Below the pieces are notes generated by a model. That model was given only the letters and a program-made list of their open reading frames with translations. It was not told where the DNA came from and searched no databases. The position numbers and the translations under genes are program-made. A DNA stretch of 24,803 bases from Saccoglossus kowalevskii (lineage: Eukaryota; Hemichordata; Enteropneusta; Harrimaniidae), in the NCBI RefSeq assembly GCF_000003605.2, contig NW_003107593.1:1-24803 (forward strand), in the 5' to 3' direction. Shown here piece by piece: positions 1,594 to 23,179 of this stretch. The first letter of the stretch is position 1, and each line of letters begins with the position of its first letter.

Positions 1594-1668
1594 ATGAATG
1601 CCATCATTGCCTTGGTGGTCGCTGCTGTCCTGATTTGTACACGTGTTCATGCTGATGATCTGCTTGAG
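1594..1668 (+). CDS. Gene 1 exon 1: signal peptide
   Basis: Encodes MNAIIALVVAAVLICTRVHA followed by DDLLE. It has a hydrophobic core and a small residue at -1, so cleavage is predicted after residue 20. The exon ends in phase 0 at GAG|GTGAGT. The matching gene 2 exon also ends in DDL[LV]E|GTGAGT, which supports this start codon. Confidence 0.85.
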
Positions 1669-4600
1669 GTGAGTCCAGTATTGATGAAATAGTGTTTAAA
1701 GTGAGTCGTGTACGCTACATGTATACGTGTATGGTTATGATTGTACCAAAGTATATTTTGAACGTCTTTTAATTGAAAGCATCATTCAAATACGTGTGTC
1801 TGCAGAATATCTCTGATTACTCTAAAATTGCTCTAATGTGAAAGATTCTACGTAATGTTCTTGATTACATGTGAATTCCGCTGACGATAATATTTTCAAT
1901 GATTGAAGAAGAACTCTCTCTCTTTCCATGACTAGCAAAGTTGCAAAGTATATTCCATATAAATGAAAGTAATGTGACTCACAGAATGTGTTCAATTAAA
2001 TACCCGTTTGCAAGTCAGAAGACATTCACAATGTCGTATATCGGTTAACATTCCCCATAAATACGGGGTTGCATAATGGTGTCTCATATGATTCAGTTAG
2101 CTTAACGATTTTATTGAAAATAATGTGAATTTAAAATATCGCATATGCAAAATGTTCTAGTAAAACCCTTCCCCTGAAATGAATTTCTTGCGTTATAGTC
2201 ATATTACTTAATACTTAATATATATTTACGAGTTCTTTATTTCTAGGCAAATGAAGCTGGAGACGGTAAGTAAATTATAATTCTCTTTATAGGTGATTTT
2301 TGGTACGAAGGATCACAAGAAGTGCACATCTAGATCAAGATATTAAATTTTAAAATATTCTGCAACAATTCATGTCGGCATTAAAAGCGTCTCATAGCAA
2401 CGGTTATGCAAATAACCATGTGTTGACCATGTGCATCTACTAACTATTTTGTCTGCTTCAAATGTATTTTGAAGACATAGTATTGTGGTCTTCACAATAT
2501 GTCAAAATTGCGACAGTTGTAGAATTTACTAGTAACATTGTCCCGATTTTGATTATTGTGTTCTATATCTGAAACTCGAAAGACAAGACTGACACCGCCA
2601 TGATATGCATTAAATAATTGAATATAAAGTTATAAATGAGAACGTTTTAAAGATGAACCTCATTTCAAGTACTGTTTAGTTGAACAAATAAAACAAAGAA
2701 CAAAATTCCACACTAATTATGTTTGTATTTGTGTTTTACCAATTAGAAGCGTGTGATGTCACAGGTAATGTCTGTTTTAAGTTCTTCCATGCATCTCGGG
2801 AGGAGTGGAGTGTAGCTAGAGATATATGTGCCGAGGACGGAGGACAACTACTCGTCATCGATTCATTAATCCTTCACAAAAAGATCAGACAATACATCAA
2901 CCTACATCCGGGTATTCAGAGTCCAAAGGGCAAAGGTTACTGGACGGGTGCAAATGATATAGAGGAAGAAGGTAAATTTCAACTAAATGAATGTACTCCG
3001 TTCACATACGACGATGGATGGCATTCCGAAAAACGCGGAAATCGAATAGTAAAACAACCTAGCAACACAGTTAAACAGGACACTGATGGACAAGACTGTG
3101 TTCAGATATGGTGAGTTTTCAACTAATGTTAAAACATTGTTCTAGTCATGTTTAACACGCCGAAAATGTTAGTTATATTTTAAAAGTCATATTTGTTTTT
3201 GTTTTCCAGGAAGCGTCCGACAAAAAATCCAGCGTGGAGATTTGACGATGACTATTGTTGGAAACCGAAATCGTTTATTTGCGAATATGTTGGTGAGTTT
3301 TGTCTATTATAGAAACCAATAGTCACTCCAATCGTATATTTGTATAATAGGCAGTAATGTGGTACCAACGTTGATGGGGTATTCAGAGGCTTTTGATAGA
3401 TATAAGGAGCTTATGTTTAAATATGATAGAAACTCAAACACAATTTGATCTTAGGGGCATCAGGTTTCCAAATAGAAAGTTTTCATTGACGACTTGGGGG
3501 CCAAATAATGATAATGATGTACGACGGGGGCCAAATGCAGAGCTGAATGTTCGTACTTGTTGCGAAACACGTTATACCACCTTGGTTGTGAACCGTATCA
3601 TGTATTTAAAGAACTGTTTGACGTAGTTTGGTTGTGGTAGTATTTGTTTATGGGCATGTATTTTCCCGTTGACTTTCGATACTGATCCATTGTTTTGTAT
3701 TTTATTTCAATTGAATATGTTGTTGTTATACTTGTTTTAGCTCTAACCTGCGAAAGTGGATTTTATGAACACGATGGAGAATGCAAACGTAAGTAGGTGT
3801 GTTTCGGGTGGGGTTGTATAGTGCGTCACATACAAACAAATCCAATATCATATACTGTTACAGTAATAGTTACCTAAAGTATACTGTTTCTGTTATTGTT
3901 TGCCTTCATCAGCATCAACATCGTACTTTGTTACTTTCGTGTTCACGTCAGTAAATGGAGTCACGGCCACCTACAGTGATGTTTATGTCGATCCAGCATC
4001 GAATGAATATCTCACACTCTCGGAGTTGGTTAGTGATTGGGTATGTATTGGCCATGCAAATCGTGGGTAGAGTAATTTACATATTTACACTTTCCTAGAG
4101 CGTTTTCAGTATTCGCAGAGTAGTTGTTATTGTTGTTGTTGCTGTAAAACATCATGAGAAGATTAGAGGCGAGAGTGCTAACCAGTAGAGACGAGTTTAG
4201 GTTGACCACGAGTTTTATTCGGCACAAGATATTTGGTATTCTCGTAATTGAAATAAATGTCAGTAACTGTAAACGTTAACAATTGTTTTTCTTCTTACTC
4301 ATGTGGAAATGATTTCATACTCACAGATCAACTCAGTCCTTGGTATAGAAAGCGCAGATTACTATGGTATTGAAATCCTTGGTTTTTATCCTGGTAGCAT
4401 AGGCGTCGATGCTGTTGTGCATTTTGACCAGACTACTACTACAACAACAACCGATGTGCGAGAATCTCTGAATACTGCGTCTGACACTGCACCGTTAGAA
4501 ATACTTCAAGCGACTATTAATGTGGCTGATGACCGCGTTTCGTGGCGAGCGGACGGCCATTGTGGTCCACTTTACCGAGGAACGAACGGGGTCAACCCAG

Positions 4601-6550
4601 CTGAATGTGATCCTTATAATACCACACCTTGCTGCTCTCCTTCGAAGGAATGCGGTGATTCACCAGCTCACTGTGATTGTGATGAATGTATAGACTACAG
4701 GGATGTGTATGGAGGTAAGCATTTACTTATTTGTCGGTGCCGCTAAACATCATATTGTCAGGTGTTTGACACTATTGGCAATTCCTAAGAACTGATTTCA
4801 AATTGCATTTACTTTATACACCAGATGATGCATTTCCACTGCCGTATCTAATTCACTGCCTGATTTACAATCATTTTGATAAATATTAAAATGACTTACT
4901 TTTTTGTCGAACTCCGAACAAACGAACTCCGAGGTCAATATGTCTTTTTTAGTCGGTTTGTACAATGTGTTACAGTGTAGTTCAATAAAGTACGTAACTG
5001 TATCAGTTATTCATTGCATTTTAGTGTTCTTGTGCAAAGCCATACTAGCAATGGGAGACACTTTTTGACCGGTGTCGTCTGTAAATACTACCGGTAAACA
5101 CTTATCAAATCGACTATGAATTGATTCTTGTTGTGGTCAACTTCGTATTTCATATTCTATTTGTCAATCATTCTTTATTTAATATTTTATAAGTTATTTA
5201 TAAAAATGGTAACGAAAATATATGTTGTGCTTCATTTAACATATATTCATTTTGCTTTCAGTCAAAAAGATAACAGCAGCTACACCAATCGCTACAACCG
5301 CTTTACCCACACCAATCCAATCTGGTGAGAATGTGTATCTTATGTATAAGTACTAATTTAAATATTGAAATTTTATTTATAGGGACGTATTGTTAGCATT
5401 GTAACAAATATACTAGGAATTTAAATCGCATTTTTTGTTAAATTTGATGAAAACAACATTCAATCAACAGACATATTTAAGTGTATCTTTTTTTAATTTT
5501 ATTCTCAAATGTTTGACATTCCTAAATCTGGTATCGAATACCAATGACATTATATATATTTAAAAAAATAACATCTTATGTAAGGTGCACGTTATATGTA
5601 TCTAATTCGCTGAATTTATCATTTTGCGACAGGTATTTATGTTAAGTATTTAATTACAGTAGTCATTCGAAGATCTATGATATTTCCACCGACTTGTTGT
5701 TAACTTAACATCACGTTTTTGCAATACAAACTTCTGAATCACAGTTTTGTTTACTTCCTTTTTCACAGCTGGGCCAGAAAAAGCACTTCCTAGAAGTAGT
5801 CAAACAAACTATTCACTGATTAGATTAGATGGTATACAATGACAATAATTTGATATATATTCGCAAAAAAATATGCAAATTAGGAAATGTGAATAATATG
5901 TATACTTAATTTAATGCAATTATTGTTCCTGGCCTAGTCATGCCGTCTGTCTATTTGTTATCAACTCTAGACTATAACACAACGTTTAAGCAAGGCGAGA
6001 TTCTCATGTAAATATTTGATTTTCTTACAGATGGACCCGTGATCAGCACCTTTAAAGCACTACCTGGCACCACTCAATGTGCATCACATTACAAAGTTTT
6101 CAATTATGCTAGTTTGGACTTGGCATTAAACGCGCTTATCGCTAACGAAGTGTATGTTAATTTCTGGGTAGATGGCACTATTGCTGGCAGTACAATCACC
6201 TTCAGTGATGGCACGTCGATGGCTGTTGACCATTCACTGTTTCATGCTAATGAGCCCAACGGAAGTGGTGGCTGCCTTCATTTGTGGTGAGTCGACTATA
6301 CTGTGCGACTTTGCGTCCGATTTATTTTGTAGATTAACCTTATTAAAGTAAGGTAGTCCCGTTGCAATTTATACCGTGATTCAATCCATCAACTATGGAA
6401 TGTTCCACACTTGCAACAGCCAGTGAATACTTCTCATTACATTTCAACAAACACGACATGTGTCTTTCATTTCACAGGTTCCATAACAGTGAATGGAAAT
6501 TAGATGATACGCCATGTACCTATGCTCAGATGTTCCTATGTTCGGGTTAA
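1594..6550 (+). CDS. Gene 1: secreted CTLD-SEA-hevein-like-CTLD protein (519 aa)
   Basis: Coding exons are 1594-1668, 2247-2265, 2747-3110, 3210-3292, 3741-3788, 3913-4040, 4327-4714, 5262-5324, 5769-5831, 6031-6286 and 6478-6550. They total 1560 nt, all junctions are GT-AG and phases match throughout. Order: signal peptide (1-20), CTLD (about 33-178), short Cys-pair segment (183-195), SEA-like domain (about 198-305), eight-Cys hevein-like module (312-363), Pro/Thr linker (369-410), short CTLD (about 414-517) ending in TAA. There is no transmembrane helix, so the product should be secreted. SEA domains often self-cleave and occur in mucin-like proteins; CTLDs commonly bind glycans with Ca2+. 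I infer an extracellular carbohydrate-recognition role. The ligand is unknown, and I do not recognise an orthologue with a name. The exon model is inferred without transcripts. Confidence 0.85.
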
Positions 6551-8800
6551 GTGAAACTAGAATTATGTGCACTTTTTACAGACATTTATCATGTTTATTA
6601 CTTGATTAGATATGGAATATAGTATTCTTTTCGATAGTTATTGTCATAGTTTTTATCGCAAATTCAGTTGTAACCCCACAATGGTAACGTGTTAAGTATT
6701 CTATATTGTAGGCGATTATACCATACACAGAACTAAATTGAACAAGATTTAAAAATATTAACATCTTATATTGTACAGCAATTGTAAACCAACTCAATAT
6801 TATATCTTTTTTATCGCTTGATATTAAGTAATGAATTATTTGTTACTGTTTAAACAAATAAGTGTTCTTTGTATTCAACATGTTTTTTTCTATTTATTTT
6901 TCAGTCCCAATAACAGAATTAGGTAAGAGAGGCATACTATTGTAATTGTAGTTTAATAAATAAGTTGCTATTCACACCAGTAAGTTATTTTACTGACTAA
7001 CCAGAGGTTGAAATTAAAAATGTGTTTCCTGTCCATTGGACAACTTAATGTATCTGTCCCTGGTAAAGTAAACTACTTCAATTACATACCATACCATTTA
7101 TGTTATTTCTATTGAAATGAATCAGTTTTATGGTTTTATTTTCATTTTCGTACAGAAATGATCTCGATAATTCTTTTGAAGTACAGATGAACCCTTACCT
7201 ATTTTAAGTAACTTGTGATATATGTGAAGTTACATATATAACGAAAGCGTATGAGATGGTAGGATACTTATAACAATATTTCTTACAGTTGGGATTGTAA
7301 TAAGTACGGAGAAAGAGCTTCCTGGAAGTACCCAGTGTTCATCACCATACAAAGTATTCGATCACTCCAGTTTGGACTTGGCAGTGAATGCGCTTTTCGC
7401 GAATGAAGATTATGTCAATTTCTGGGTTGATGGTACTATAGCTGGCAGTACAATTACCTTCAGTGATGGCACATCGATGGCTGTTGATCATTCACTGTTT
7501 CATGCTAATGAGCCAAATGGAAGCGGTGGCTGCCTCCATTTGTGGTGAGTGAGACTTTTATTTTGTGATTGTGACGAAGTAAACATGGGGCGCACATTTC
7601 ATATTTGGCAGTATTTAATATAAAGAGGCTATTCGCCGCCAACAGAAAAATGCCACATGATTTATGTTCGGTGTTCTCACGAATTCTTGCATTGTAGGAG
7701 TGAGAATAAGGAAACGAGATATATAACGCGATATTTTCTTGTTTGCAGCAAATTACCTCCCTTTATCATAATGCAACAGCTTCAATAAAGCGTAAATAAG
7801 GATTGAATGAACTCATACGACTGACTTCTGGCATGAAAGCTGTGAGGCGCGGATTAATATATAACGCAATCGTGACTTGGCAATTATTGACGTTTGTAAA
7901 CACGTCGTAGAATTTTATAGCATTTCACTTTTATATATGACACTCAGTTATTATCGTGACAGGCGCATTCAGGATATTAAGTACTTAAATATTCAAAGTG
8001 TGCATTATTGCGGCACTATTTTATCTAAGGTCACGGGTGATACGTTTTTTTTTTAAGTCATTAGGTGTATCCTGCTGTACTGCGCGAAAAGAATTACACT
8101 GAAAAGTGCTATGAAACCGAACTTTTATTTACCTTTTTACATTGGTATGAATTAATTCGAATAATTGAGTGTCAATTGTGAATGAAAACAATCGATTGCT
8201 AAGATTTTTATTTCAAAATACGACCATAAAGCACAATCGGTCATGGATGCTTGTTGTTGTTGGTAGGTGTTCTACTACGATAGTTGATTTTCAGCTGTTT
8301 CCTCGTCAGAGTAATTATCGTCTCGATTAGGAACGTTGCCAGATTTTTGTCATAACCACTTGCTAAATCCCATAACTCTTGGTCACCATCGTGGTTTGCT
8401 ATTCTGTTCTTTTCCAACGTAATCAAAGCTCCATGGCGTTCCCTGGCTTCTATTCTACCATTTTAGCGAATGAGACCTTTGAAACGATAGCCGACATGAA
8501 CGCACTTACTAAAACTACATGGTCGTACTACCAGCTAAATTGCTCATGTTTCTCCATAAGATTCTATGATTTGTATATTTCCACTTTTAACATTGTATCT
8601 AGCATGAATTCTTATTTCATGTTGATACTTACTACGGAGTGCGGGACAAGGCAAACAATCTGGCTATTTGTTCCGGTACCTTAGCTTATATGAGCATCGT
8701 GCTTATTTTCGTTATTTCCATTCACAGGTACCATAACAAGAAATGGAAATTGGATGACACACCATGTACCTATGCTCAGATGTATTTATGTGTGGATTAA
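1594..8800 (+). CDS. Gene 1 alternative isoform with second C-terminal CTLD cassette (525 aa)
   Basis: Exons 1-9 as in the main model, then 6905-6922, 7289-7544 and 8728-8800, replacing 6031-6286 and 6478-6550. Exon 9 ends in phase 1, the 18-nt mini-exon is 1-1, and exon 7289-7544 starts in phase 1, so the frame is kept and ends at TAA 8798-8800; total coding length 1578 nt. The replacement exons have the same lengths (256 and 73 nt) as those they replace. They have no signal-peptide exon or promoter of their own that I can see, so use as alternative 3' exons of gene 1 is the simplest reading. The mini-exon is the weakest element; direct splicing of exon 9 to 7289 would also keep the frame. 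Confidence 0.6.
2247..2265 (+). CDS. Gene 1 exon 2: 19-nt micro-exon
   Basis: GCAAATGAAGCTGGAGACG between TTTCTAG and GTAAGT encodes ANEAGD plus one base (phase 0 to 1). Its partner in gene 2 (14896-14914) has the same length and encodes the same six residues, so it is a genuine micro-exon despite its size. It adds to an acidic stretch just after the signal peptide. Confidence 0.85.
2747..3110 (+). CDS. Gene 1 exon 3: main part of N-terminal CTLD
   Basis: Residues 32-153. It shows the long-form CTLD start C34-x6-C41, the helix motif EEWSVARDIC (to C59), DGGQLL, the WTG core (97-99), and QPSN-x10-DC (135-149). Expected disulphides are C34-C41, C59-C177 and C149-C169. C114 has no partner in the canonical fold and is Gly in gene 2. 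The QPS motif replaces the usual EPN/QPD of Ca2+ site 2, so classical sugar binding is uncertain. The exon ends in phase 2 inside a Trp codon (TG|G). Confidence 0.9.
3210..3292 (+). CDS. Gene 1 exon 4: end of N-terminal CTLD
   Basis: Residues 153-180, with WRFDDDYC (162-169) in the place of the usual WND-x-C and SFICEY at the end, closing the CTLD. The exon is 83 nt, phase 2 to 1, the same as its gene 2 partner at 16147-16229. Confidence 0.9.
3741..3788 (+). CDS. Gene 1 exon 5: Cys-pair linker
   Basis: Encodes LTCESGFYEHDGECK (phase 1 to 1) between the CTLD and the SEA domain. Its two cysteines are 11 residues apart, which resembles half an EGF-like module; no complete EGF domain is present. 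Absent from gene 2. Confidence 0.75.
3913..4040 (+). CDS. Gene 1 exon 6: first half of SEA domain
   Basis: Residues 197-239. The pattern YFVTFVFTSVNG.TATYSDVYVDP, then SNEYLTLSELVSDW, matches the first strand, loop and helix of SEA domains. The exon ends in phase 0 after the Trp codon (TGG|GTATGT) and continues in 4327-4714. Confidence 0.75.
4327..4714 (+). CDS. Gene 1 exon 7: SEA second half and hevein-like Cys module
   Basis: Residues 240-369. SEA continues to about 305, with FYPGSIGVDAVVHF including G262-S263-I264-G265-V266, the turn where SEA domains self-cleave (G|S). A run of seven Thr (275-281) follows. Residues 312-363 form an eight-Cys module: CG (318), C333-DP, P-CC-SP (341-342), CG (348), HC-x-C (355, 357), C360, then IDYRD. 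This order is that of hevein-type (chitin-binding type 1) modules, and similar ones occur in other marine invertebrate proteins. The aromatic residues before the fifth Cys are Lys-Glu here, so chitin binding is doubtful. Confidence 0.8.
5262..5324 (+). CDS. Gene 1 exon 8: Thr/Ala/Pro linker
   Basis: Encodes VKKITAATPIATTALPTPIQS, phase 1 to 1, 63 nt. Rich in Thr, Pro and Ala, so likely an extended, O-glycosylated spacer. Being symmetrical, it can be skipped without a frame change. Confidence 0.75.
5769..5831 (+). CDS. Gene 1 exon 9: linker, relic of a CTLD-start exon
   Basis: Phase 1 to 1, 63 nt. It contains EKALPRSSQ, which aligns in frame with EKELPGSTQ (exon 7289-7544) and FKALPGTTQ (exon 6031-6286); 18 of 22 bases match the former. 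It appears to be the truncated start of a third copy of the C-terminal CTLD exon, now a spacer. The donor (GTATAC) is weaker than the others. Confidence 0.6.
6031..6286 (+). CDS. Gene 1 exon 10: C-terminal CTLD cassette 1, first exon
   Basis: Residues 411-496, phase 1 to 2. It shows TQC (C427), a helix-like LDLALNAL, FWVDG (455-459), FSDGT, and HANEPNGSGGC (482-492). EPN is the mannose-type Ca2+/sugar site 2 signature in CTLDs. The usual first strand and helix upstream of the first conserved Cys are not recognisable, so this is a shortened CTLD. Nearly duplicated at 7289-7544. Confidence 0.88.
6478..6550 (+). CDS. Gene 1 exon 11: CTLD cassette 1, last exon with stop
   Basis: Encodes FHNSEWKLDDTPCTYAQMFL, then CSG and TAA. 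WKLDD takes the place of the WND motif, with C509 and C517 closing the two disulphides. The 73-nt length equals that of the copy at 8728-8800. Confidence 0.87.
6905..6922 (+). CDS. Gene 1 exon 12: 18-nt symmetrical mini-exon (alternative)
   Basis: TCCCAATAACAGAATTAG between a T-rich TTTTTCAG acceptor and GTAAGA. It encodes PITEL between split codons, phase 1 to 1, and would join exon 9 to cassette 2 in frame. Both splice sites are good matches, but at this size chance is possible. Confidence 0.5.
6955..6960 (+). terminator. Poly(A) signal for cassette 1
   Basis: AATAAA, 405 nt after the cassette 1 stop. It lies just past the mini-exon 6905-6922, so use of this signal and splicing to cassette 2 would compete. 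Confidence 0.5.
7289..7544 (+). CDS. Gene 1 exon 13: CTLD cassette 2, first exon (alternative)
   Basis: A 256-nt near-copy of exon 10 with the same phases (1 to 2). The half covering FWVDG to CLHLW is identical in protein, including HANEPNGSGGC. The first half differs (ISTEKELPGSTQCSSPYKVF), with an open frame throughout and intact splice sites (TTTCTTACAG, GTGAGT). The following intron is 1183 nt against 191 nt after exon 10; it holds no gene that I recognise. Confidence 0.8.
8728..8800 (+). CDS. Gene 1 exon 14: CTLD cassette 2, last exon with stop
   Basis: Encodes YHNKKWKLDDTPCTYAQMYL, then CVD and TAA. Same length and phase as exon 11, with the Cys and DD residues kept. Acceptor CCATTCACAG. 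Confidence 0.8.
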
Positions 8801-8927
8801 ATGGTGAGCCAACTAATACTACTATGTTGATTATTATAATATTTATAATATGTTCAATTTTAGCGTCAAATGCATTCCCGATATGAACAGTAATCGCATC
8901 TTCCGCATTAATTTGATCATGTTGTAA

Positions 8928-8933
8928 AATAAA
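8928..8933 (+). terminator. Poly(A) signal for cassette 2
   Basis: AATAAA, 128 nt after TAA 8798-8800. Further AATAAA copies at 9052-9057 and 9135-9140 could serve as alternatives. Confidence 0.55.
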
Positions 8934-10125
8934 ATTTGTACATTATTCTATTGTACACATTATCTGGCTGGTGAACAGTGTATTGTAATGCAATATTGTT
9001 ATCTTACTCAGTTACCATCGTAATACAATAGTCCGTATAAGGTTGACTACCAATAAATCAAGTCTATTTTACTGCGAATTGTTTTCTATATTATTTCTAT
9101 TATGCTGTGGCCTTATGTCAGCATGGTATAGCAAAATAAACCATTAAGCAAAAATTGCAATATTTAAAATTGTTATTTCGACTTGTGTATTAAGCTTGTG
9201 AATGAAAATCGTATTTAAGTATGGAAACGACTTTTATATAACTCGTGTTTCTTACGGTCTTATTGTTTTCAGGATATGGTTTAATCGAAATCAACGGATA
9301 AAAAATAACTTTTTTGCGGACATATTCTGCAAACATATCAATCATGTGACTACGTTGTAATAATGAATTGTATTTTAGCAGAACATTAAAATTATCCCAA
9401 GTATAATTATACATGAGTTTGTGTTTTTTGTGTGTGAGTAATTACTGCTACTATCTTACTCAATTATTTATTGGGGTCGTTCGTAACATCGGTTATATAT
9501 TGTCTATATATAATATATACAGAGCTGGCAATTGGCGGTGACAATAATCACGTTATACAGTTTAACCAAGTAAATTGACTGATAAGAATCATTAATATGC
9601 GGGTTATGCCATTGTGTAAATAGGTAGCAAAGGTTGTCAAGAAGAACAATGAATTATACAGGAAGGGGTAGAAAAGACCACTGAAATAAAAAAAAACACT
9701 ATTTACATGTTTTATTAATATGTTTAAACTCACTGTAGTTGAGATTGGTAAATATGTCCAACAATCACCCGTCAGGAATTTGCTCATTTATTTCTGCTTC
9801 TCATCAAAAACGGATAACTATCTGTTTGTGGCACTTTTGCGTCGGCCTACTTGAACTTACGGTATCAGGGACCAGTACGCATTGTTTACACTGCGAAAAA
9901 GCTAAAGATGGTGTGTGTTATATAATAATAGTTTTACATGGCTTAGTAAATATTACAGTGAAATCAAACTGAACTGTGTACGAAAACGAATATTGTTATT
10001 ATTTGCTACACATTGCGGAACAAATTTGTCATATTGACACATTGTTCTCAGGCACGTGGGATAACTGTTTATGTCTCCACAACGCAGAAAAAATGGTTGT
10101 AATTATATTTAGTATACGATTACAG
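8934..10125. other. Intergenic, nothing recognised
   Basis: Spare poly(A) signals at 9052 and 9135 belong to gene 1. Short open frames on both strands (for example minus 9548-9787 and plus 9739-9972) lack domains, splice context and coding character. Confidence 0.5.
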
Positions 10126-10195
10126 TTCGAAGGTCCGATCAATCAACACTAATGGTCAGCTTATTAAGTTCTTCCACGCACTCGGAACAGTGTGA
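10126..10195 (+). pseudogene. Decayed CTLD exon fragment (relic paralogue)
   Basis: Follows a splice-acceptor-like GATTACAG. The stretch AATGGTCAGCTTATTAAGTT, then CTTCCACGCACTCGGAACAG, aligns with the start of CTLD exon 3 in gene 1 (AATGTCTG, TTTTAAGTTCTTCCATGCAT, CTCGGGAGGAGTGG) and gene 2. Small indels break the frame and no downstream exon follows. It lies between the two intact paralogues, so it is probably the remains of a third copy. Confidence 0.55.
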
Positions 10196-10772
10196 CACAA
10201 TCACATTTTAAATCGTTTCAAAACCTATAAACACTGTATTCACGAACAAATAACCCACTAGTGGTACATGCTACAGTGAGCTACCTCACAATAAGTGACA
10301 GTTATTAAAAATGTTTTGAGAAGAGATGTGACTCTCTCACTCGACAGCTACGCAATAATGCTTACGAGATTATGGGGAGTCTACTTCGTATATGTTTAAT
10401 CTGTTACGTTCGAACTTTTGAATCTATCTTCACTGGGTCGTCGCAACCCAACACACAATGCATATAAATCTACCACAATGAAGATATAATACAATTCACA
10501 AATCAATATTATCTTTTAAATCAATGTAGCAGTGTCATGTATTATATAATGTTAGAATGGATATATATACATTTCCAGTATCAGTGACGCCGACACACTC
10601 TTGCAAACGATTGCATAAGATATGTAAATTTAATATACAAGAAACATATACAAATTCCATAATTTCCTGATTGACATCTCTAGCTTCGACTAGTTCGTAC
10701 ACTTTTAGATGAGCACACAAGTCTGGAGACGACGCAACCTCCTCCGCCGTCTGCTCCACGCAAAACAGCCAG
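10196..10772. other. Intergenic, nothing recognised
   Basis: No exon, RNA gene or clear element. A minus-strand open frame near 10535-10789 runs into the tandem repeat and looks incidental. Confidence 0.45.
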
Positions 10773-11420
10773 TAGATTGGTTGAAACATTCATGAGACAC
10801 ACATGCTCCAAATTGTGCCCATTTTTGCTGAAAATCCAAGATGGCGGCAAAACAATGTGACAGATCTTTTCCTTTTCATAATAAGCTTCAGCCATACATG
10901 CTATATACAAAATATCAAGTCTATCAGTTAGTATTTTATTTTTCCCTGGAGAAGCTTTGGTCTGACATATTTTATATGCTAAATATCAAGTTTACGGGGT
11001 AAATATTCATGAGAAAGAAATACACCAAATTACGGTCTGCCAAACCAGGTGACCGACCAAAACTATTTTATTTTATTTTCAGAAGCTTTAGCCATAAACA
11101 TTTTATACAAAATATCTAGTTGATTGGTTGAAGCACTAATGGGAAATAAATGCCCAAAATTGTGGTCATTTTGCGAGAAAACCAAAATAGCGACCAAACC
11201 AACCAATCGAAATTGTTTCATTTTTCCCTTGAGAAGCTGCGGCCATACATACAAAATATTAAGTTGATCATTTGAAGCATTCATGAAAAACAAATGCCCA
11301 AACGTTTGGTAATTGTTACTGGAAAAGTATAGATGGTGTCGAAATAATCACATGACTAATTTAAACTCGTTTTCCCCTTCCTGAAGATTTTCAGTTGAGA
11401 GATGCAACATGACATATTTC
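10773..11420. repeat. Degenerate ~145-bp tandem repeat
   Basis: Units start near 10773, 10990, 11119 and 11263, with a truncated unit at about 10920-10989. Shared elements in order: TTGATTGGTTGAAGCATTCA, TGAGAAA.AAATGCCCAAA, TTGTGGTCATTTT, GAAAATCCAAGATGGC, TTTTTCCCTTGAGAAGCTT, CAGCCATACAT, ATACAAAATATCAAG. The minus strand stays open across parts of the array because units 3 and 4 are 144 bp apart (a multiple of three). The units are quite divergent, so this is an old array; family not identified. Confidence 0.7.
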
Positions 11421-14604: not shown

Positions 14605-14676
14605 ATGAACGTCATCTTTGTAATTCTGATCTTTGCCATGGGGCACACATCTGTTAATGGGGACGATCTGGTTGAG
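14605..14676 (+). CDS. Gene 2 exon 1: signal peptide
   Basis: Encodes MNVIFVILIFAMGHTSVNG then DDLVE, phase 0. The ATG has a good context (CACCATGA) and the exon parallels gene 1 exon 1. Confidence 0.87.
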
Positions 14677-17600
14677 GTGAGTAAGATGGTCTTTAATTGA
14701 AACTGAATGCAATCTATGAGCATTACATATTGATATCAATGACCTGTTTATATATACATCGGAAAACAATGTTAGATTAAACTGCACGTGTTTCAAATCA
14801 ACCAGAGCAATGTGTGTAGAGAATTCTAATGCAACCCCGGAAGTGATCATCCTGAACACATATTACGCTATGTGTTCTATCTTCTATATTTCCAGGCAAA
14901 CGAAGCGGGAGACGGTGAGTTTATTCTGATTCATTCACCAATACATGTACACATCGTGAATTACTCGTATACGTCATAGGATATGACCAACTACGAAGAT
15001 TTTTTATTATAACTTCGTAACAAATGTAAATTTGAAAAAACTGTTTGTAGTTGGTAGTATTGAATATAGTGATTGGAAATCGTTCTACAGATGTGTTGCG
15101 CATTCGTAAGGCAGTAAATACGTTTTGGTTATTACTGTTTTCACCTACAGAAGCATGTGATGCAACAACCAATGATTGTTTTAAATTCTTCCATTCAACA
15201 CGTGAGGAATGGAGTGTAGCTAGAGATATATGTGCCGAGGACGGAGGGCAACTACTCAACATTGATTCAGCATCCCTACACAAGAAGATCAGACAATACA
15301 TCAACTCACATCCAAATATAGAGAATCCCGGTGGCAATGGTTACTGGACTGGTACGAATGACATAGAGGAGGAGGGCGTATTTCAGCTGATCGACGGTAC
15401 TCCTTTAACCTATGCCGATGGGTGGCATTCTGAGAAACGTGGAAGGAGGATAATAACACAACCAAGCAATACGGTTAAACAGGATATCAATGGACAGGAT
15501 TGTGTCCAGCTATGGTAAGCTTTCATCACGTACAATTCGCGCTGTATAATTGATAACATCGTAGCAATGTAATAATAGATGGAATGATATACATTCTCAT
15601 TTCGGTGTCATAGTACTTCCGGAGTAGAATCATTCATTACACATTTTGCATTTATAACATGCTTATTTCAAACACAGTATAGACAGGTGTTACTTCAGAC
15701 CCCATATCATAAAACATAGTATATAATGTTGAACGTCACCGATATATGTTTATGTTTGTTGCGGCAGCTACTTCCGTAACTTTGATCAGCATCTGAGGTC
15801 ATCTTTACGTTATCTATCATTGTACGCGCACAGTCGCGCGCGTTTCCTTTTTGTCGATTTTGTCCAGATTCCCAGAGAATTACAATTTGATTTGTTTTAT
15901 AAACTTGTGATTCGTTGGACAATAATTTCACAAATTATCAAGAGGACGATATATTCCGTTTGTTATCGTATTCCGTAAGCTTAAAAAAAATCTTGAATAT
16001 CCTGTAATAAAAAAAATGTTCGTTAATTTCTACAATCATTACCATACGGCACTCTTAATAATACAAACGTTATTACTGCGATAAATATATTCTTTTTCAA
16101 TTTGCGTGCAATCACAATTGTATTTGATGTTATATTTATCATCCAGGAACCGTCCGGCCAAAAACTCAGTATGGAATTTCGACGATGACTATTGTTGGAA
16201 GCTTAAATCCTTCATTTGTGAATATACTGGTAAGTTTATGCTCTGAAAAAAATATTGATGCAACATAATATTGTTTCCGTTATTCAACATTTTCTCACGT
16301 TGTTGTATATGTGATTTGAAAGTCATTTGTTGTGAATATAATCGATAGTTAAACTAATAATATCGATATTGGCCTATGATTTCTAGTTTCAATTTCAGTT
16401 ATCGTAAATGAAACATTATGTATCTTTATTCTTTCACACGTAACAAGCCGTATCACCGACAACGGAACAACGTAAGTATTATAACATATCGACTAATTAA
16501 ACAGTGTGTGTGATGCAGTTACATGCAGTTGCATGTGTTACCTATGACAAATATTCCATGTGCGCAGGTTCAGTGAACTTGTATATATGTTTTGAGATTT
16601 TTCTATCGATTTATATATATTTCGATTCATTGATTGACTTAGAAGACAATTTAGCTGGGGTTATTTCAAGGACAACTTGAAAAAATGTGTATTTATCCTC
16701 AAAATAGAATATCTTTTTTTTTTCGAATGAAGTATATTTACGTGTTCATTTCACAAATTGTACCAGTAGTTATGACTACTTTTTAATTACGTCCTTCATA
16801 TGTATTTTGGTTAGAGGGAGTTGTTGCTGTGAACGTCCGTAATTTACATAATCATATTATTTAAATATTACATAATTCTTTTGTATGCTTTTTCATTGTT
16901 TTTCAGTTATTACGTCTGCGGCGCCACAGGAAGCTGTCCTACCTGAAAGTGTACCAGGTACATTTCTCTTTTTGTCTTTCCTGGACACACTAATTGATTT
17001 CAATGTTTTCACAATATTTGGCAGCAGAGTATTACCATGAGATATTTTAATGAACCCTTTAAATTTCTGGATTTAGACAGGCAAAGGATATACCGGGCTT
17101 TCTACATAGATCTGAATTGGCAGGACGCAAAAGATGCGTGCGTGGAGGACGGTGGGGAGTTGGCATCGCTACCAGACATTAGTGCTCATCAGAAAGTGAT
17201 GGAGGAAATTGTCAGTGCTGGAGATCACACGGAGGAACGTATGTAATTGGATAATTTCCCAATTGGATCTCATTTTATACTGAAACTGCTTTTCAGATTT
17301 GCTAATTTTCTGAAGTAACGAGGTCTGAACTCACTAACACCCTGATATGTACCGCACGTCATACGTGTTTGCAAACTTCATTCTAGAAATGAATTACACA
17401 TCCACAATGCATATGACTGCTATGATGTTATTGATATTAATAGCATATGTTATAAGGAATTGTAATTCGTACTAATGTTCATCTGTGACACATGCATTGC
17501 AGATGCATTCTGGGTTGGAGTGCGACGACTCGCTGAAGAGAACGGATACAGGAGTCTGAATGTTACTGAGCAAACATATACAAATTGGGCTGCCCATAAT

Positions 17601-20600
17601 CCTGTTGACAGCAGTGACCGTCTCTGTGTAGCGGTCTAGTATGTATTGCATTTTTTTTCAAACTAAATAACGCAGTGTATTATTGGTTCGATAATTATAC
17701 AAAGGCACTTAATCTTATATGTATATATAAGTATATATTTTGTGCTGTTTTTTTTTTATCCGACAGCACATCCCGACTGTCACTTTTTGGAAGGTGGTTC
17801 AATAACAGATGTACTTTGGAAGGACCTTATGTTTGCGAATACGGTGATTCCATATTTTTTGTCGCAGTATAACATTGTGAAATTTAATTCAATTTTGTGA
17901 TTGTATCATATTCCATAGATGCATATTGTCAATTGAATGAATTGAAGTTCAACAAAGCAAATTTTGGGCGTGTCAATTTTTATTATCCATAAACACATTT
18001 CTGTTTTGTTTTGTTTTGTTTTTTAATTCAGAGGGTATACCAACAGTGATTCCACCTGTAACGACTGAGCCAGGTAAATTATTATTTTCTTCACTACGCA
18101 GACCATTTTTTTGCCGGGAGTGGTTTATCTCTCCGTCAGCTGGAAGGACCGATTGTTGTGATTGTTCAGAAGGGTTTACTTTTTTGACGACCGGATAATT
18201 CTCTATTTTGAATAATACCTGGATATGTACAGTTATGAACATGTTATGAAATGTTGTAAATTCTTAAGATGGATAGCCTTTGACATACGGACTAGTCAGA
18301 TATATTAGGAGAGGTCGGCATTTGTTAGTCATTGAGATTTCACCATTCAGATAAGTGAAAATAGTTTCGAAACACATTTGATGACGAGTTGCTCCTATTT
18401 AAAGGGCGGTGGTCGTTACATCGCGTTCTGTTTGATATACGACTACGACTCATAGCGAAGGACACAGCGCTACACAAATACAATGTTTATTTGCTTTAAA
18501 TTCGAAGATGCTCTGCGCGACGACCGCCGCTCTTTAATAATAACTATATAATTGGTAAGTGTTGCCCTGATTTTCAAATTAATTTCACACAGTATTATAA
18601 TATTAACTACCAATTATAGTATATTTTTTAAATTTATTCACAGAGGAAGAAGTGAAATCGACATACTGGGCACACTGGGGTAGCTACGATTGGGATACAA
18701 CAATATCTAAATGTGCGGAACACGGAGGATACAGTGTATCCATTCCAAATGCAGAGGCCCAGCGAGACCTAGAAATTAAAATTCTGACTGACACGGAACA
18801 TGTTCGAACTGGTAGGTATCTTCGACGACTCAACGATCGCTGCTCAGTGTTGTTGCAGTAAATGATTTGCATTATTCTAAGAATCATGGGTAAAAGAACG
18901 ATACCGTGGGAACGAGGTTATTAGAACCTGGTGTAACTCGTATCAACCGGGTCTACGAATAATATTTGATAATCGTATAACGTCAGAACATATAATTAGC
19001 ATTTGGTGAGGTTTGCGTTTACGCAAATAATATGATATTATTCAGTTTAAAAGTCAATGAAGCATTTGGTTTGACATCGGTGAGATTCTGCGTTGTGTTT
19101 TGACGACACCATCGTTGTTTTTTTGCGTTTAATTAAAGGTTTTCCGTTAATTGAGAGGATCGGAGTGCGGAATAATATTGTTACACTAAACCGAGATTGA
19201 ATATCGAAACGTTGCAACTGTTGCTTATGAAAATTCAATAGTAGACCTATACTAAATAAATTAGGCATACAGTTAATTCTGTATCTTTTTTTAAAATAAA
19301 TTGACTTATAATGTAATTGAAGGAAGTTGTACTATAGGAATAAAATGTCAGTATTATAAGCTATAGTAATCAATAAGTCAACTCATTCCTTCTATCACAT
19401 GATAGATGCGCGGGTAACTAATTTTCACAAACTATCCATACATTTACCACGTGGTCATCAACATTGTATATGTGCGCCTATTATTAAGACATCCAAGCAC
19501 ACTAGTGAGATTCGAAGTATAGCAAATCTGTTTTACGACTGCATGTCAGAAAATCATGACAATGAAACTGTTTGGTATTATGTTGTCATGAAAACATCCC
19601 GGGAAATAAATTCAGGAAAATCGAACCCGGATAAATACAAATATTTCAAAAACGAGGATTTATTTGATTTATGACTTAATTGTAATGGATCACCAAAAAC
19701 CACTGTAAAGTTTTGCGTACGTCTGAGTCAAGATTACGCACTGTACACATCTACAATAGGAGTAAACACATTTAATTCATTAACTAATTTCTATTGTTTC
19801 AAAGTTGGATATTTCACTGGAATTCATCGAATGCTGGATAGAACATGGGCAAATGCAGATGGGTCTCCGCTGACGTATACTAACTGGGACGATGGCTATC
19901 CTGATAGCGAAGACGATGACTGCGTTTGGATATTGTAAATAGCATATTTTATAAATTTTAAGTTTTGTATAATCGCTTCAGATTATCACGCGCAATGATT
20001 CGATATTGCCATATACTGGGTGAGATTGCCTCGTGGTTATGTATAGTAAATGTGGTATATATTATAGAATGACGTCACTCCGTCAAACATACAAATATAC
20101 TGGTCATAGAGATAGAAACACGAGGTACACATTCAGGATACTAGTATACTTCTCATTTCCAAGGTACACAGAAAATGCGATGATTCGATAGAATATACTC
20201 ATTGTAAAATGATAGAGCTCGGAATTACTTTTGAGTTGATATTTCGCTACCATAGTATTGCTGTTCCAGCATTGAAATAAACATCAACTTATTCTACAAC
20301 ACATTTTGTGGATACACTGTAAAACACTTTGAAATAGCTACTTGCCATTTTTGCGAGTTTGACTCAACACATAAATAAACAAAATCTTAATTTAGCTAAA
20401 ATGCCAACAATCTCATTGCGAGAATACACTTTATTCTAAATTAGCGACATCTTGAATTAGCGAAATTACAGGTTAGCTAAATTAGCAAAAATGACATGCT
20501 AGCTAAAAAGACGTATTTTACAGTGGGTAATTTATACATTTCGCAGCGTGGGTGGCATTGCAGCTGCTTGGCTTCCATCGTTTGGAAAATGGAGGAATCG

Positions 20601-23179
20601 ACCTTGTAATGACAGATTGACAATTGCCTGTCAATATGACGTCGACGGTAAGACTACGTATTTGTCTTCACACTGTAATATGCCTGTCTATTAATTTTTG
20701 TCGATTTCTGTCTATACATTATCACCATGCGTCTCCGACATATGCCTACTTTATGTACGAATACGTTCTGGTTTTATTGACAAATAAGAACGAGACACCG
20801 TGGTGCCCGAAGAGAGATATTACAAGGCTTATTTAGAACCTAAAAGTTGGAATTCAGCTAGGTCATTTTGCATCGAAAATGGTGGAGACCTTGCCTCGGT
20901 CCCCGATGAAGCTGCATATGCACAGTTGGTACCGGTACTTCTTGAAGATGGCATTTACACGGTGTCTGGTAAGTGTCTTCATAACCTATAACCCTCGTAT
21001 ATGCATCTGTTTCTCGCACGGTTTCAGACTAGCCACCTTCTGATAACTGTATTTAGAAGATAAGTTGTACTTATGCCGAATGCACACAACATGTATTGAG
21101 ACACTGACAGATGTTATGGAGTGTCTTCATTTCTGTACCCATGTATCCATTCCAGAAGTTGGATCTCAATATGCATGGTATATCTCAAATGTTTGGTTTA
21201 ATAATAGCAACATCGGAATTTACATTAATATGTTTTTTTGTTACAAGACTTTTTCTGGATTGGGGTACGTCGAGGCGCTGGGGGCGTCTTCAAAGATTTG
21301 AACGGAGATGAACAGACATACCTAGTCTGGCCGTCGGTGGGGATATTCTCTGAGCCACAACATTACGAATGTACATCCGTTTGGTAAATAAGATTAATTT
21401 TATTTGCCTGATGCGTAGAACGATATGGATTTTGATGAACAACTTTAAATTCCTTCTGGTCACAGACTGAATACTCGATTTTAATTTTTAGACGTGTTTA
21501 AGGCCAATACAATGCCAAACTGTTTGAAGTTATAATTTGACAGCGGGCGAAATTTTATGTCGCCTGAGACAGATCTAGGGTAATTTTTCACTAATTCATA
21601 AATATATTGATGGTTTACTTTTTGATAACCGGAACACAAATTTAACCGACTGTTTATTAGCTCAAGGATAAATATTGCTGTAGACAAACGTTAAACTATG
21701 AGACATACATTGGTGGCATTACATCTCAAATTGATCAAGCAGATGAAAATGATCGGAAAAGGCGATATTAGAATCATGATTCAGAAGACACGTAGAATGA
21801 GTGTAGAGCGAGTTGTGTTTTTAGGCGCAGTGCATATTACTAACATCGTGAACACAACAGTGCATCCTGTGAAATCTCGCCAGTCCGCAGTGAGATATAA
21901 TAAACAACCAGCCTGGTGTAGGATGCACAGACTGAAATCATTTTTTCGTTATTTTACAGGACGAAGAAAGGAGTTTATTGGCCTTACTACTGGAGAACTG
22001 TCTCTTGTTCATCTCGTCAGGCTTTTGTGTGCGAGTTTCTCGCTGAACCAGACGATGAGCAAGACTATAACGACGAGGGGCAGACGGGCAGGTACCGTGT
22101 CTACCATGATGCAACTGACTGGGAAACAGCCAGAGGGCGGTGTCACGAAAGAGGCGGCGATCTCGCATCCGTTCCTAGCGCAGATGACCAGGAAGATATC
22201 GCAAACAAAATCGGGCTATCGGATTGGACATATCGTATGTATATCATTGTTGCCATTGCCAAGAAGTTTTAGTATACAACTGTCCAATAATATATTTATT
22301 ATTCACGTTTAGTTTCTACTTCTAATCATGAAACCCCAATGTATACGTATATTTGTCATTGGCTAGCATATATGAAAACACGCGTTTGACCAATCAAAAC
22401 GTCGCTTATAGACAATTGAAATATGCTGGTTAAATATAGTCATATATTAACTATAAATACTTATTTCATTATAAAAACATTAACAATTTCAAAATCAATA
22501 TAAAAACAATTCGCCAAACAGTGTTTCTACATTCATTATGTATCTATTATTATCAGGTGGATATTGGATTGGTATTAAGAGAGAAGCACCCGGGAGTGTA
22601 TTCACAAACCTAGATGGAACGAGACTGACTTATAATAACTTTTCAAGTAATCCTTGGATCGGATATCCTTGCGCGTATATCAGGTAATTATTGCATGAAA
22701 CAGCAATTGAATTAACGTCATGCTAATTTATCATTGGAGAGACTCTTTGATGCACTTTGATAACGTGCTTAGAGCCTGGATTGAAACAGAAACTTCCTGA
22801 ATATATTTATGAGTTGGTTTCGCTACTGTGTTTTTAGCTAAAACTCCAAAACTCAATTATGAGGAAAAGTTTGGTAAACTTATTATTTTAGGAGCAATAT
22901 TAGATATATAGATTGTATTTGCCACCATGTTGAAATAGCTTGTTTTCAGGGAATTTGGAATGAAACAAAATAACCCTGTTACTGATTGCGAATTGAATAA
23001 TAGATTGAATTTATAATGTCAAATACAACAGTGTGATATAAACTACAATCATTTGTTTTAATCTATGTGATATTTCTACATGTCACAGAGGAAATGGATT
23101 TCCGTCATCTTTTTCTAAGTGGGAAGCCAGTTATTGTAATGTATGGCGTTATTATGTTTGTGAATTTGACCTTGAATAA
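14605..23179 (+). CDS. Gene 2: secreted protein with five C-type lectin-like domains (745 aa)
   Basis: Coding exons are 14605-14676, 14896-14914, 15151-15514, 16147-16229, 16448-16471, 16907-16957, 17077-17238, 17503-17638, 17767-17843, 18032-18073, 18644-18811, 19805-19934, 20547-20647, 20789-20968, 21248-21383, 21960-22234, 22557-22683 and 23089-23179 (2238 nt, all GT-AG, phases consistent). Order: signal peptide (1-19), CTLD A (33-178), Pro/Thr linker, CTLD B (205-330), linker, CTLD C (345-475), CTLD D (483-607), CTLD E (620-742). The tandem CTLD layout recalls the mannose receptor family, but there is no ricin, FN2 or transmembrane region, so it is a soluble multi-CTLD protein. Only domains A and C keep site-2-like Ca2+ motifs (QPSN, YPD); the others have diverged. 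Ligand unknown. Confidence 0.85.
14896..14914 (+). CDS. Gene 2 exon 2: 19-nt micro-exon
   Basis: GCAAACGAAGCGGGAGACG between TTTCCAG and GTGAGT, encoding ANEAGD. It differs from gene 1 only at two synonymous positions. Confidence 0.87.
15151..15514 (+). CDS. Gene 2 exon 3: main part of CTLD A
   Basis: Residues 31-152, 364 nt as in gene 1, with EACDATTNDCFKFFH, EEWSVARDICAEDGG, YWTGTND, and QPSN before GQDCVQLW. Strongly conserved with gene 1, but Gly replaces the odd extra Cys. Ends in phase 2 inside a Trp codon. Confidence 0.92.
16147..16229 (+). CDS. Gene 2 exon 4: end of CTLD A
   Basis: Encodes NRPAKNSVWNFDDDYCWKLK then SFICEYT. WNFDDDYC stands in for the WND region. 83 nt, phase 2 to 1. 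Confidence 0.9.
16448..16471 (+). CDS. Gene 2 exon 5: 24-nt linker exon
   Basis: Encodes VSPTTEQ between split codons, phase 1 to 1. The acceptor is ...CACACGTAACAAG after a pyrimidine-rich stretch; the donor is GTAAGT. Symmetrical and skippable. Confidence 0.65.
16907..16957 (+). CDS. Gene 2 exon 6: linker exon
   Basis: Encodes ITSAAPQEAVLPESVP, phase 1 to 1, after the acceptor TGTTTTTCAG. Pro/Ala-rich spacer before CTLD B. Confidence 0.75.
17077..17238 (+). CDS. Gene 2 exon 7: CTLD B, first exon
   Basis: Residues 205-259: DRQRIYRAFYID then LNWQDAKDACVEDGGELASL, the W-x2-A-x3-C-x3-GG CTLD helix pattern. The acceptor chosen is GGATTTAG ending at 17076, because it alone fits the phase-1 partner. 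The AG sites at 17024 and 17027 would meet TAA within a few codons in that phase. Confidence 0.8.
17503..17638 (+). CDS. Gene 2 exon 8: CTLD B, middle exon
   Basis: Residues 259-304: AFWVGVRR (the WIG core), TYTNWAAHNPVDSSDRLCVA. NPV sits where EPN/QPD would be, so Ca2+ site 2 is probably altered. Phase 1 to 2; the donor GTATGT overlaps an in-frame TAG. Confidence 0.85.
17767..17843 (+). CDS. Gene 2 exon 9: CTLD B, last exon
   Basis: Encodes TSRLSLFGRWFNNRC then TLEGPYVCEY. The donor is a weak GTGATT. If it is not used, reading continues for nine codons to TAA (17871-17873). Confidence 0.82.
18032..18073 (+). CDS. Gene 2 exon 10: Pro/Thr linker exon
   Basis: Encodes GIPTVIPPVTTEP between split Glu codons, phase 1 to 1, after a long TTTTG run and the acceptor TTTTTAATTCAG. 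Confidence 0.8.
18403..18533. mobile_element. MITE-like element with TTAA target duplication
   Basis: TTAA is present on both sides (18399-18402 and 18534-18537). The ends are AGGGCGGTGGTCGT and, on the other strand, AGAGCGGCGGTCGT (12 of 14 match). It is 131 bp, non-coding, in intron 10 of gene 2. TTAA duplication is typical of piggyBac-type insertion, but the ends do not start with the usual CCY, so the family is uncertain. Confidence 0.6.
18644..18811 (+). CDS. Gene 2 exon 11: CTLD C, first exon
   Basis: Residues 344-400: STYWAHWGSYDWDTTISKCA, EHGGYSVSIPNAEAQ. Usual CTLD helix 1 with Cys and GG. Phase 1 to 1 (G|GTAGGT). Confidence 0.85.
19805..19934 (+). CDS. Gene 2 exon 12: CTLD C, middle exon
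   Basis: Residues 400-443: GYFTGIHRM, ADGSPLTYTNWDDGYPDSED then DDCVWI. YPD sits at the EPN/QPD position with several acidic residues around it, making this the best candidate Ca2+ site of the tandem repeats. Acceptor TTGTTTCAAAG; phase 1 to 2. The preceding 993-nt intron holds nothing recognised. Confidence 0.85.
20314..20525. mobile_element. MITE-like element with ~50-bp terminal inverted repeats
   Basis: The left end CACTGTAAAACAC and right end GTATTTTACAGTG are inverted copies. Homology continues inward for about 50 bp (TAGCTA..TG.CATTTTTGC.A.TTT on both sides). It is 212 bp, AT-rich and non-coding. No clear target duplication is seen. It ends 21 nt before the exon 13 acceptor. Confidence 0.7.
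20547..20647 (+). CDS. Gene 2 exon 13: CTLD C, last exon
   Basis: Encodes VGGIAAAWLPSFGKWRNRPC then NDRLTIACQYDVD. WRN replaces WND. Phase 2 to 1; donor GTAAGA. Confidence 0.85.
20789..20968 (+). CDS. Gene 2 exon 14: CTLD D, first exon
   Basis: Residues 477-537: VVPEERYYKAYLEPKSWNSA, RSFCIENGGDLASVPDEAAY. No separate linker exon precedes it, unlike CTLD B and C. The acceptor GACAAATAAG is chosen by phase and the open frame. Confidence 0.82.
21248..21383 (+). CDS. Gene 2 exon 15: CTLD D, middle exon
   Basis: Residues 537-582: FFWIGVRRGAGG, DLNGDEQTYLVWPS, FSEPQHYECTSVW. It contains EP but not EPN, and is 136 nt, the same as exon 8. Ends in phase 2 inside a Trp codon, as in CTLD A. Confidence 0.85.
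21960..22234 (+). CDS. Gene 2 exon 16: fused end of CTLD D and start of CTLD E
   Basis: Residues 582-674. The first part (YWRTVSCSSRQAFVCEF) closes CTLD D. An acidic linker (EPDDEQDYNDEGQT) follows, then RYRVYHDATDWETARGRCHE, RGGDLASVPSADDQ starts CTLD E. Elsewhere in this gene these parts are separate exons, so an intron seems to have been lost here. The end TAT C|GTATGT gives phase 1. Confidence 0.85.
22557..22683 (+). CDS. Gene 2 exon 17: CTLD E, middle exon
   Basis: Residues 674-716: GYWIGIKREAPGS, NLDGTRLTYNNFSSNPWIGY then PCAYI. NPW at the EPN position suggests no classical site 2. Phase 1 to 2. Confidence 0.85.
23089..23179 (+). CDS. Gene 2 exon 18: CTLD E end and stop
   Basis: Encodes GNGFPSSFSKWEASYCNVWR then YYVCEFDLE and TAA (23177-23179). 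KWEASYC lacks the WND Asn-Asp. No hydrophobic tail follows, so the protein is not membrane-anchored by this exon. Confidence 0.87.

Follow-up and report, generated by a model that had tools for sequence, protein, structure and literature searches.

Two homologous C-terminal lectin cassettes in a gene of Saccoglossus kowalevskii and their possible origin from a tandem domain pair

Duplicated 3´ regions in described genes

In Drosophila, pip carries mutually exclusive tandem terminal exons, and the 3´ variable regions of PGRP-LC are tied to competing RNA structures (PMC9013439). Human capping protein beta possesses homologous 3´-terminal exons and multiple poly(A) sites (PMC3228551). The gene described here, gene 1 of Saccoglossus kowalevskii, resembles pip and PGRP-LC in its tandem homologous 3´ regions, which in those genes are chosen one at a time (PMC9013439); there the choice is documented, whereas gene 1 is known from its sequence and displays no convincing competing pairing. 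Gene 1 is also similar to capping protein beta (PMC3228551) in having duplicated terminal exons that agree with each other in length and phase. It differs from capping protein beta in that its duplicated unit is a domain cassette made up of two exons, and in that a 3´UTR intron probably follows copy 2. Unlike in PGRP-LC and pip, the first of the two ends of gene 1 seems to be derived from a splice donor of a tandem-domain arrangement.

In the secreted/membrane switch of immunoglobulin mu, the terminal exon is composite, and splicing competes with intronic polyadenylation. Gene 1 shares with immunoglobulin mu a stop codon lying just beyond a 5´ splice site, but this site is degenerate in gene 1 and probably unused. 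PGRP-LC is an immune recognition receptor, and gene 1 is like it also in kind of gene; as in the PGRP-LC type, homologous C-terminal cassettes (82% identical), each with its own stop codon, stand behind a common in-frame upstream exon. Mutually exclusive internal exons of the Dscam type are ruled out, since both cassettes carry a stop codon. Among the literature matches listed in a narrow check, no title concerned a lectin with this arrangement.

As a general layout this has been described before; the origin proposed for it in gene 1 is unusual and testable. It would show how domains repeated in tandem can become alternative C-terminal ones, a change of the linking donor both blocking splicing and creating a stop, and the earlier state seems to be preserved at related loci in the same genome. 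For invertebrate immunity, this would add a way for a lectin to vary its ligand-contacting end.

Anatomy of gene 1 and its two cassettes

The window, that is, the whole stretch of DNA analysed, comprises the first 24.8 kb of the 338-kb contig C207 in a genome of 572 Mb. Gene 1 lies on its forward strand, as do all gene 1 features given below. Exons 1-8 (1594-5324), starting with an ATG at 1594 and a signal-like N-terminus, form a splice-consistent open model which encodes a CTLD (exons 2747-3110 and 3210-3292), then a SEA domain with a Cys-rich segment (3913-4714) and, in exon 8 (5262-5324), a linker. Compared with Pfam, the 519-aa gene 1 model reaches 52.8 bits for Lectin_C and 28.8 bits for SEA. 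The cassettes are preceded by exon 9 (5769-5831), a 63-nt linker exon of phase 1-1, whose donor ATG|GTATAC is the weakest among the 20 window donors scored. Gene 2 (14605-23179) has exons 2-4 in common with gene 1 according to self-BLAST; the rest of it, by reading, appears to be a tandem CTLD array with short phase-1 linker exons. Between both genes, positions 10761-11330 hold diverged interspersed direct repeats, the copies being 66-81% alike.

Cassette 1 is composed of a 256-nt first exon coding for a short CTLD (6031-6286) and a 73-nt second exon (6478-6550) with the end TGT TCG GGT TAA. Cassette 2 has a 256-nt first exon (7289-7544) and a second exon whose coding part (8728-8800) ends with GTG GAT TAA; this exon probably extends to 8803. 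The initial annotation had described the final two CTLD exons (256 + 73 nt) as present twice, each time with a stop, and the lengths, phases and TAA codons confirm this. In a self-BLAST of the window the first exons match over 272 nt (6021-6292 and 7279-7550, 82%, E 8e-75) and the second exons over 89 nt (6465-6553 and 8715-8803, 82%, E 6e-19). The aligned part thus consists of the exons and roughly 10 flanking nt at either end. Beyond these the introns cannot be aligned, which marks the duplication as old. The end of exon 9, the mini-exon described below and the exon starts at 6031 and 7289 are all in phase 1, and the common upstream exon fits either cassette in frame; both phases and splice sites agree with the earlier proposal that exon 9 can be joined to either of them.

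The inferred cassette proteins are 83% identical. Codons 42-86 (6153-6286 and 7411-7544), spanning the EPN region, give 45 consecutive identical residues. Out of 19 amino-acid differences, 13 fall into codons 1-41 and the remaining 6 into the last exon, so the previously stated divergence of the N-terminal halves describes the larger group of differences but not those of the last exon. With their four Cys and an EPN motif, both cassettes read as short CTLDs. Their designation as EPN-type domains is correct as regards the motif, which is what the label is based on, but the Lectin_C scores (PF00059, cut-off 22.6 bits) straddle the cut-off, with 22.0 for cassette 1 alone and 22.9 for cassette 2 alone. 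The WND region reads LDD and, judged by the generally known list of ligands, the acidic residue before Cys, which is present in CLEC4D, is missing. A sequence search of the PDB gave five matches up to E 1, the best one being CLEC4D (E 0.0023, residues 68-107).

Ahead of cassette 2, an 18-nt mini-exon of phase 1-1 (6905-6922) encodes VPITEL and is similar in type to the linker exons of phase 1-1 in both gene 1 and gene 2. Splice matrices were trained on the exons of the gene 1 and gene 2 models, the mini-exon being excluded. With these, its acceptor scores 12.7 bits, second-best of 22 (leave-one-out), and its donor a sound 6.6. When the 24.8-kb window was scanned for short in-frame phase-1 exons with thresholds of 8 and 6 bits, five candidates emerged: exons 5 and 8, two linkers of gene 2 and the mini-exon, the first four of which had trained the matrices. 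Markov shuffles of 6551-7288 (738 nt) yield any such candidate in 5 of 500 cases; looser thresholds give 7 and 8 candidates in the window, and 10 and 46 of 500 shuffles, respectively. The symmetrical mini-exon postulated ahead of copy 2 is accordingly found where expected, and as a predicted exon it stands convincingly above chance.

Two further ways of splicing may be considered here. The two first exons finish in phase 2, which is taken up by either second exon, so that a hybrid with 6286 joined to 8728 would keep the frame; it would, however, skip an exon with a good acceptor. Alternatively, cassette 2 might belong to a separate transcript, but in 6551-7288 the scan for short phase-1 exons gives the mini-exon only. 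We consider hybrid or otherwise different splicing of this kind very improbable.

Paralogous copies and the boundaries of the cassettes

The first exon of cassette 2 matches 8 places in the genome at the DNA level, and the protein search gives 13 matches at E up to 10. Ten of these 13 were read, on six contigs: two each on C207, C350, C1647 and C1343, and one each on C3803 and C728. Outside the copies read are the matches on C3173, C216 and C2724 (E 0.02-7). The first exon on C728 is truncated by the contig end, and one of the C350 copies (C350a) adjoins a run of N. The distance between the two members of a pair is about 1 kb on C1647 and 1.4 kb on C1343. Both pairs are located downstream of astacin exons, which were recognized on C1647 by Pfam (Astacin, 98.1 bits for the piece) and on C1343 by reading. 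The paired arrangement is therefore not peculiar to gene 1. These astacin-CTLD-CTLD loci have the same short CTLD pair as gene 1, the same phases and alike 3´ boundaries; they differ in retaining a GTAA donor in the upstream copy and in having astacin upstream instead of CTLD-SEA. Since the second exon of copy 1 on C1343 (C1343c1) and the first exon of C350a are out of frame, C1647 carries the only intact putative tandem pair among the copies read. The other C350 copy (C350b) is out of frame from the first acceptor chosen and open from a nearby place. Between the members of the pairs, a homologous mini-exon was found neither in C1343 nor, apart from a single weak 15-nt candidate, in C1647. The astacin exons of both loci seem to need a GC donor, CAG|GCAGGT, for the phase-1 CTLD exon; it is common to both and was read at L020 4575-4583 and at L021 (minus strand) about 8520-8511.

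Upon comparison, the copies show two types of 3´ end. The upstream type, comprising C1647c1, C1343c1 and C350a, reads TGT TCN G|GTAAnn, a phase-1 donor in the family frame; G|GTAAAA, G|GTAAAG and G|GTAATA occur in these copies where cassette 1 has its stop. In the pairs on C1647 and C1343, the upstream members conform to TGT TCN G|GTAAAR and the terminal members to TAA NNG|GTRRGT. Presumably, splicing at the upstream-type sites links the two members of each paralogous pair in tandem. A TAA stands at the same codon in six of the ten copies, and in five of the six a donor follows three nt later. These terminal-type ends are TAA ATG|GTGAGC in cassette 2 of gene 1, TAA ATG|GTAAGT on C1647, TAA ACG|GTAGGT on C1343, TAA GCT|GTAAGT on C728 and TAA ACG|GTGAGT on C3803 (read, unscored). 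Cassette 1 is the exception, its end reading TGT TCG GGT TAA GTG without such a donor. C350b has neither type of end (TGT TCA GAT TAT).

The post-stop donor in these five copies, at 8801-8809 in cassette 2 (intron from 8804), indicates that the second exon is probably a terminal coding exon followed by a 3´UTR intron. Since cassette 2 is of the terminal type with such a donor, the AATAAA at 8928 probably lies inside this intron, and the 3´ end formerly placed near 8950 is probably not there. Each cassette had been credited with an AATAAA of its own. The hexamers do exist, but they are too common to count: the window contains 27 on the forward strand, about one per kb, and 45% of 405-nt intergenic stretches contain one. 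For this reason we rejected poly(A) signals as evidence; the AATAAA at 6955-6960, which could serve cassette 1, is weak evidence as well, being a common hexamer. A very weak candidate for the last, 3´UTR exon is found after the acceptor tattgttttcag (9273-9405, end uncertain, ATTAAA at 9385). This acceptor, with 9.4 bits, is one of three with at least 8 bits in 8806-10600, and 4.1 kb of intergenic DNA hold four. A MAFFT alignment of the candidate exon with the stretches behind the C1647, C1343 and C728 copies, in which the gene 1 row is one base late, was unconvincing.

Positions 6543-6551 of cassette 1 read CGG|GTTAAG, a putative decayed 5´ splice site which overlaps the TAA (6548-6550) and with which the exon would end at 6545, in phase 1. 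The copies, C3803 excluded, were compared over the 33 nt that follow the codon of the last Cys, against 20000 shuffles. The flank of cassette 1 is closest to upstream-type CTLD exons, sharing 23/33 positions with C1343c1 (0/20000 shuffles), 20/33 with C1647c1 (p 5e-5) and 16/33 with C350a, versus 12/33 with each of the terminal-type C1647c2, C1343c2 and C728 and 13/33 with C350b. The flank of cassette 2 shares 21/33 with C1647c2 (0/20000), 18/33 with C1343c2 (p 3.5e-4) and 13/33 with C728 (p 0.09), all of terminal type, and 11/33 and 12/33 with the upstream-type C1647c1 and C1343c1. Evidently, both 3´ boundaries are like those of paralogues. Because the flank of cassette 1 is most like the donor type, its TAA most plausibly arose as a side effect when the donor decayed to GTTAAG. 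Descent of both TAA codons from one ancestral stop is disfavoured by this comparison, although the two flanks agree in 15/33 positions, above shuffles (p 0.018), and may have some ancestry in common.

Since the stop of cassette 1 belongs to a decayed donor, a two-domain product is a real rival. The site at 6545 would still be spliced to the mini-exon and further to cassette 2, giving two C-terminal CTLDs, the unspliced form having a single one. Phase 1 on both sides and the linker type of the mini-exon fit such tandem use, since a gene with tandem domains would be just as likely to contain a linker of this sort. The paralogues are so arranged, their donors being only moderate and devoid of G at +5, and read-through past the donor is halted by a stop immediately in gene 1 and three codons further on in C1647. 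The strength of the site speaks mostly against it. With window-trained scoring it reaches 0.33, the three paralogue sites 5.5, 3.9 and 3.5 and the 20 window donors 4.0-11.4 (leave-one-out), and 35% of the 1540 GT dinucleotides on the forward strand score equally or better. Animal donors very rarely combine T at +3 with A at +5. A second, approximate donor matrix gives 1.4 for the site, which is only slightly less than the 2.1 of the accepted exon 9 donor, the lowest of 19; for this reason the GTTAAG donor, weak as it appears from its sequence, may still be live. Taken together, we regard tandem use as unlikely.

Selection on the cassettes and their probable use

Between the cassettes, the method of Nei and Gojobori gives dN 0.10 and dS 0.91 overall, dN 0.185 and dS 2.8 (near saturation) for codons 1-40, dN 0.014 and dS 0.54 for codons 41-86, and dN 0.154 and dS 0.64 for the last exon. 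Identity in codons 42-86 despite silent differences, next to 40 preceding codons that have freely diverged, points to strong constraint or old gene conversion. In a DNA tree of seven first exons (C350a, C728 and C3803 left out), C1647c2 groups with C1343c2 (100/99) and C1647c1 with C1343c1 (98/97); both first exons of gene 1 group with C350b (99/97), with inner order unresolved, and are nearer to the upstream type. As judged from its sequence, cassette 2 combines a first exon of upstream type with an end of terminal type. For such a mosaic, the origin preferred below would need gene conversion or partial re-duplication within gene 1; the reduced dS of codons 41-86 agrees with conversion.

The 40 differences over 90 codons were polarised by C350b, C1647c1 and, for the first exon only, C1343c1; the counts represent parsimony on single sites, uncorrected for multiple hits. 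The line of cassette 1 acquired 10 nonsynonymous and 10 synonymous changes (dN/dS about 0.25, p 0.0025 versus neutrality), that of cassette 2 6 and 14 (dN/dS about 0.11, p 1.7e-6). By these counts both copies are under purifying selection, both cassettes look functional, and cassette 2 is, if anything, the more conserved copy. Cassette 2 is therefore not long-silent. This signal is an average over history, and a recent loss of use would leave no mark. Cassette 2 could be recently orphaned, decay of the donor having truncated the protein after cassette 1 with too little time left for cassette 2 to decay. Such decay would give exactly the observed layout, and the family has out-of-frame copies elsewhere, namely those in C1343c1 and C350a. 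Cassette 2, however, contains no internal stop or frameshift, has good splice sites and shows the lower dN/dS of the two lines, and we hold recent orphaning to be rather unlikely, if conceivable.

The explanation we prefer, and to which we would give about an even chance, is that gene 1 once encoded two CTLDs in tandem, that the donor linking them turned into a stop by decay, and that the gene now has alternative C-termini. We infer the following order of events. The ancestor would have ended in a tandem pair of short C-terminal CTLD modules, linked via a phase-1 intron. The linking 5´ splice site, which is GTAAAG, GTAAAA or GTAATA in paralogues, would have decayed to GTTAAG; as this form of the site contributes an in-frame TAA, module 1 would have become the terminal domain. 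Module 2 would have retained its terminal stop, the donor of the 3´UTR intron behind it and its coding constraint. It would most likely be reached by splicing of exon 9 (or 8) past module 1, with or without the 18-nt linker exon, the alternative C-termini being module 1, with cleavage in the next intron, or module 2.

If GTTAAG is dead, the cassette 1 transcript must be cleaved before or within the next intron, and cassette 2 can be reached only if exon 8 or 9 is spliced past cassette 1. Stop codons upstream of exon junctions invite nonsense-mediated decay, to which a cassette 1 transcript running on and splicing 6922 to 7289 would be exposed. Weak donors often precede skipped exons, and the weak donor of exon 9 would favour skipping. 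A point against skipping is that the bypassed exons have good acceptors, 10.4 and 10.8 bits. As for competing RNA pairing, 5832-8727 contain 14 inverted-repeat pairs (14-34 nt, 71-93% complementary), none of them convincing in a search without shuffle control. The original suggestion that one lectin carries either of two domains thus agrees with the homologous ends, with the phases and with the functional appearance of both copies; what it did not foresee are paralogous pairs with a donor where cassette 1 stops.

A bolder version, which we deem quite improbable, is a three-way switch at a stop nested in a weak donor: the unspliced form would give CTLD 1, splicing at GTTAAG CTLD 1 + 2, and skipping of cassette 1 CTLD 2 alone. 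If true, a tandem repeat would allow one gene to produce forms with one head and forms with two, and it would take only small changes at the linking donor to convert domain arrays into alternative ends.

Related genes elsewhere in the genome show further variety. In C350:236000-271000 (minus strand) there are two paralogues of the 5´ part of gene 1 (CTLD-SEA-Cys-rich), in which pentraxin/laminin-G-like open-frame arrays, recognized by Pfam on one frame, replace the short CTLDs; these are the same heads with other tails. On C4110 (37.8 kb), matches to Lectin_C are spaced at 8-kb intervals on each strand (minus 4287, 12274, 20299, 28328 and 36318; plus 7273, 15258, 23282 and 31313); either units of about 8 kb are arrayed in tandem here, or the assembly is at fault.
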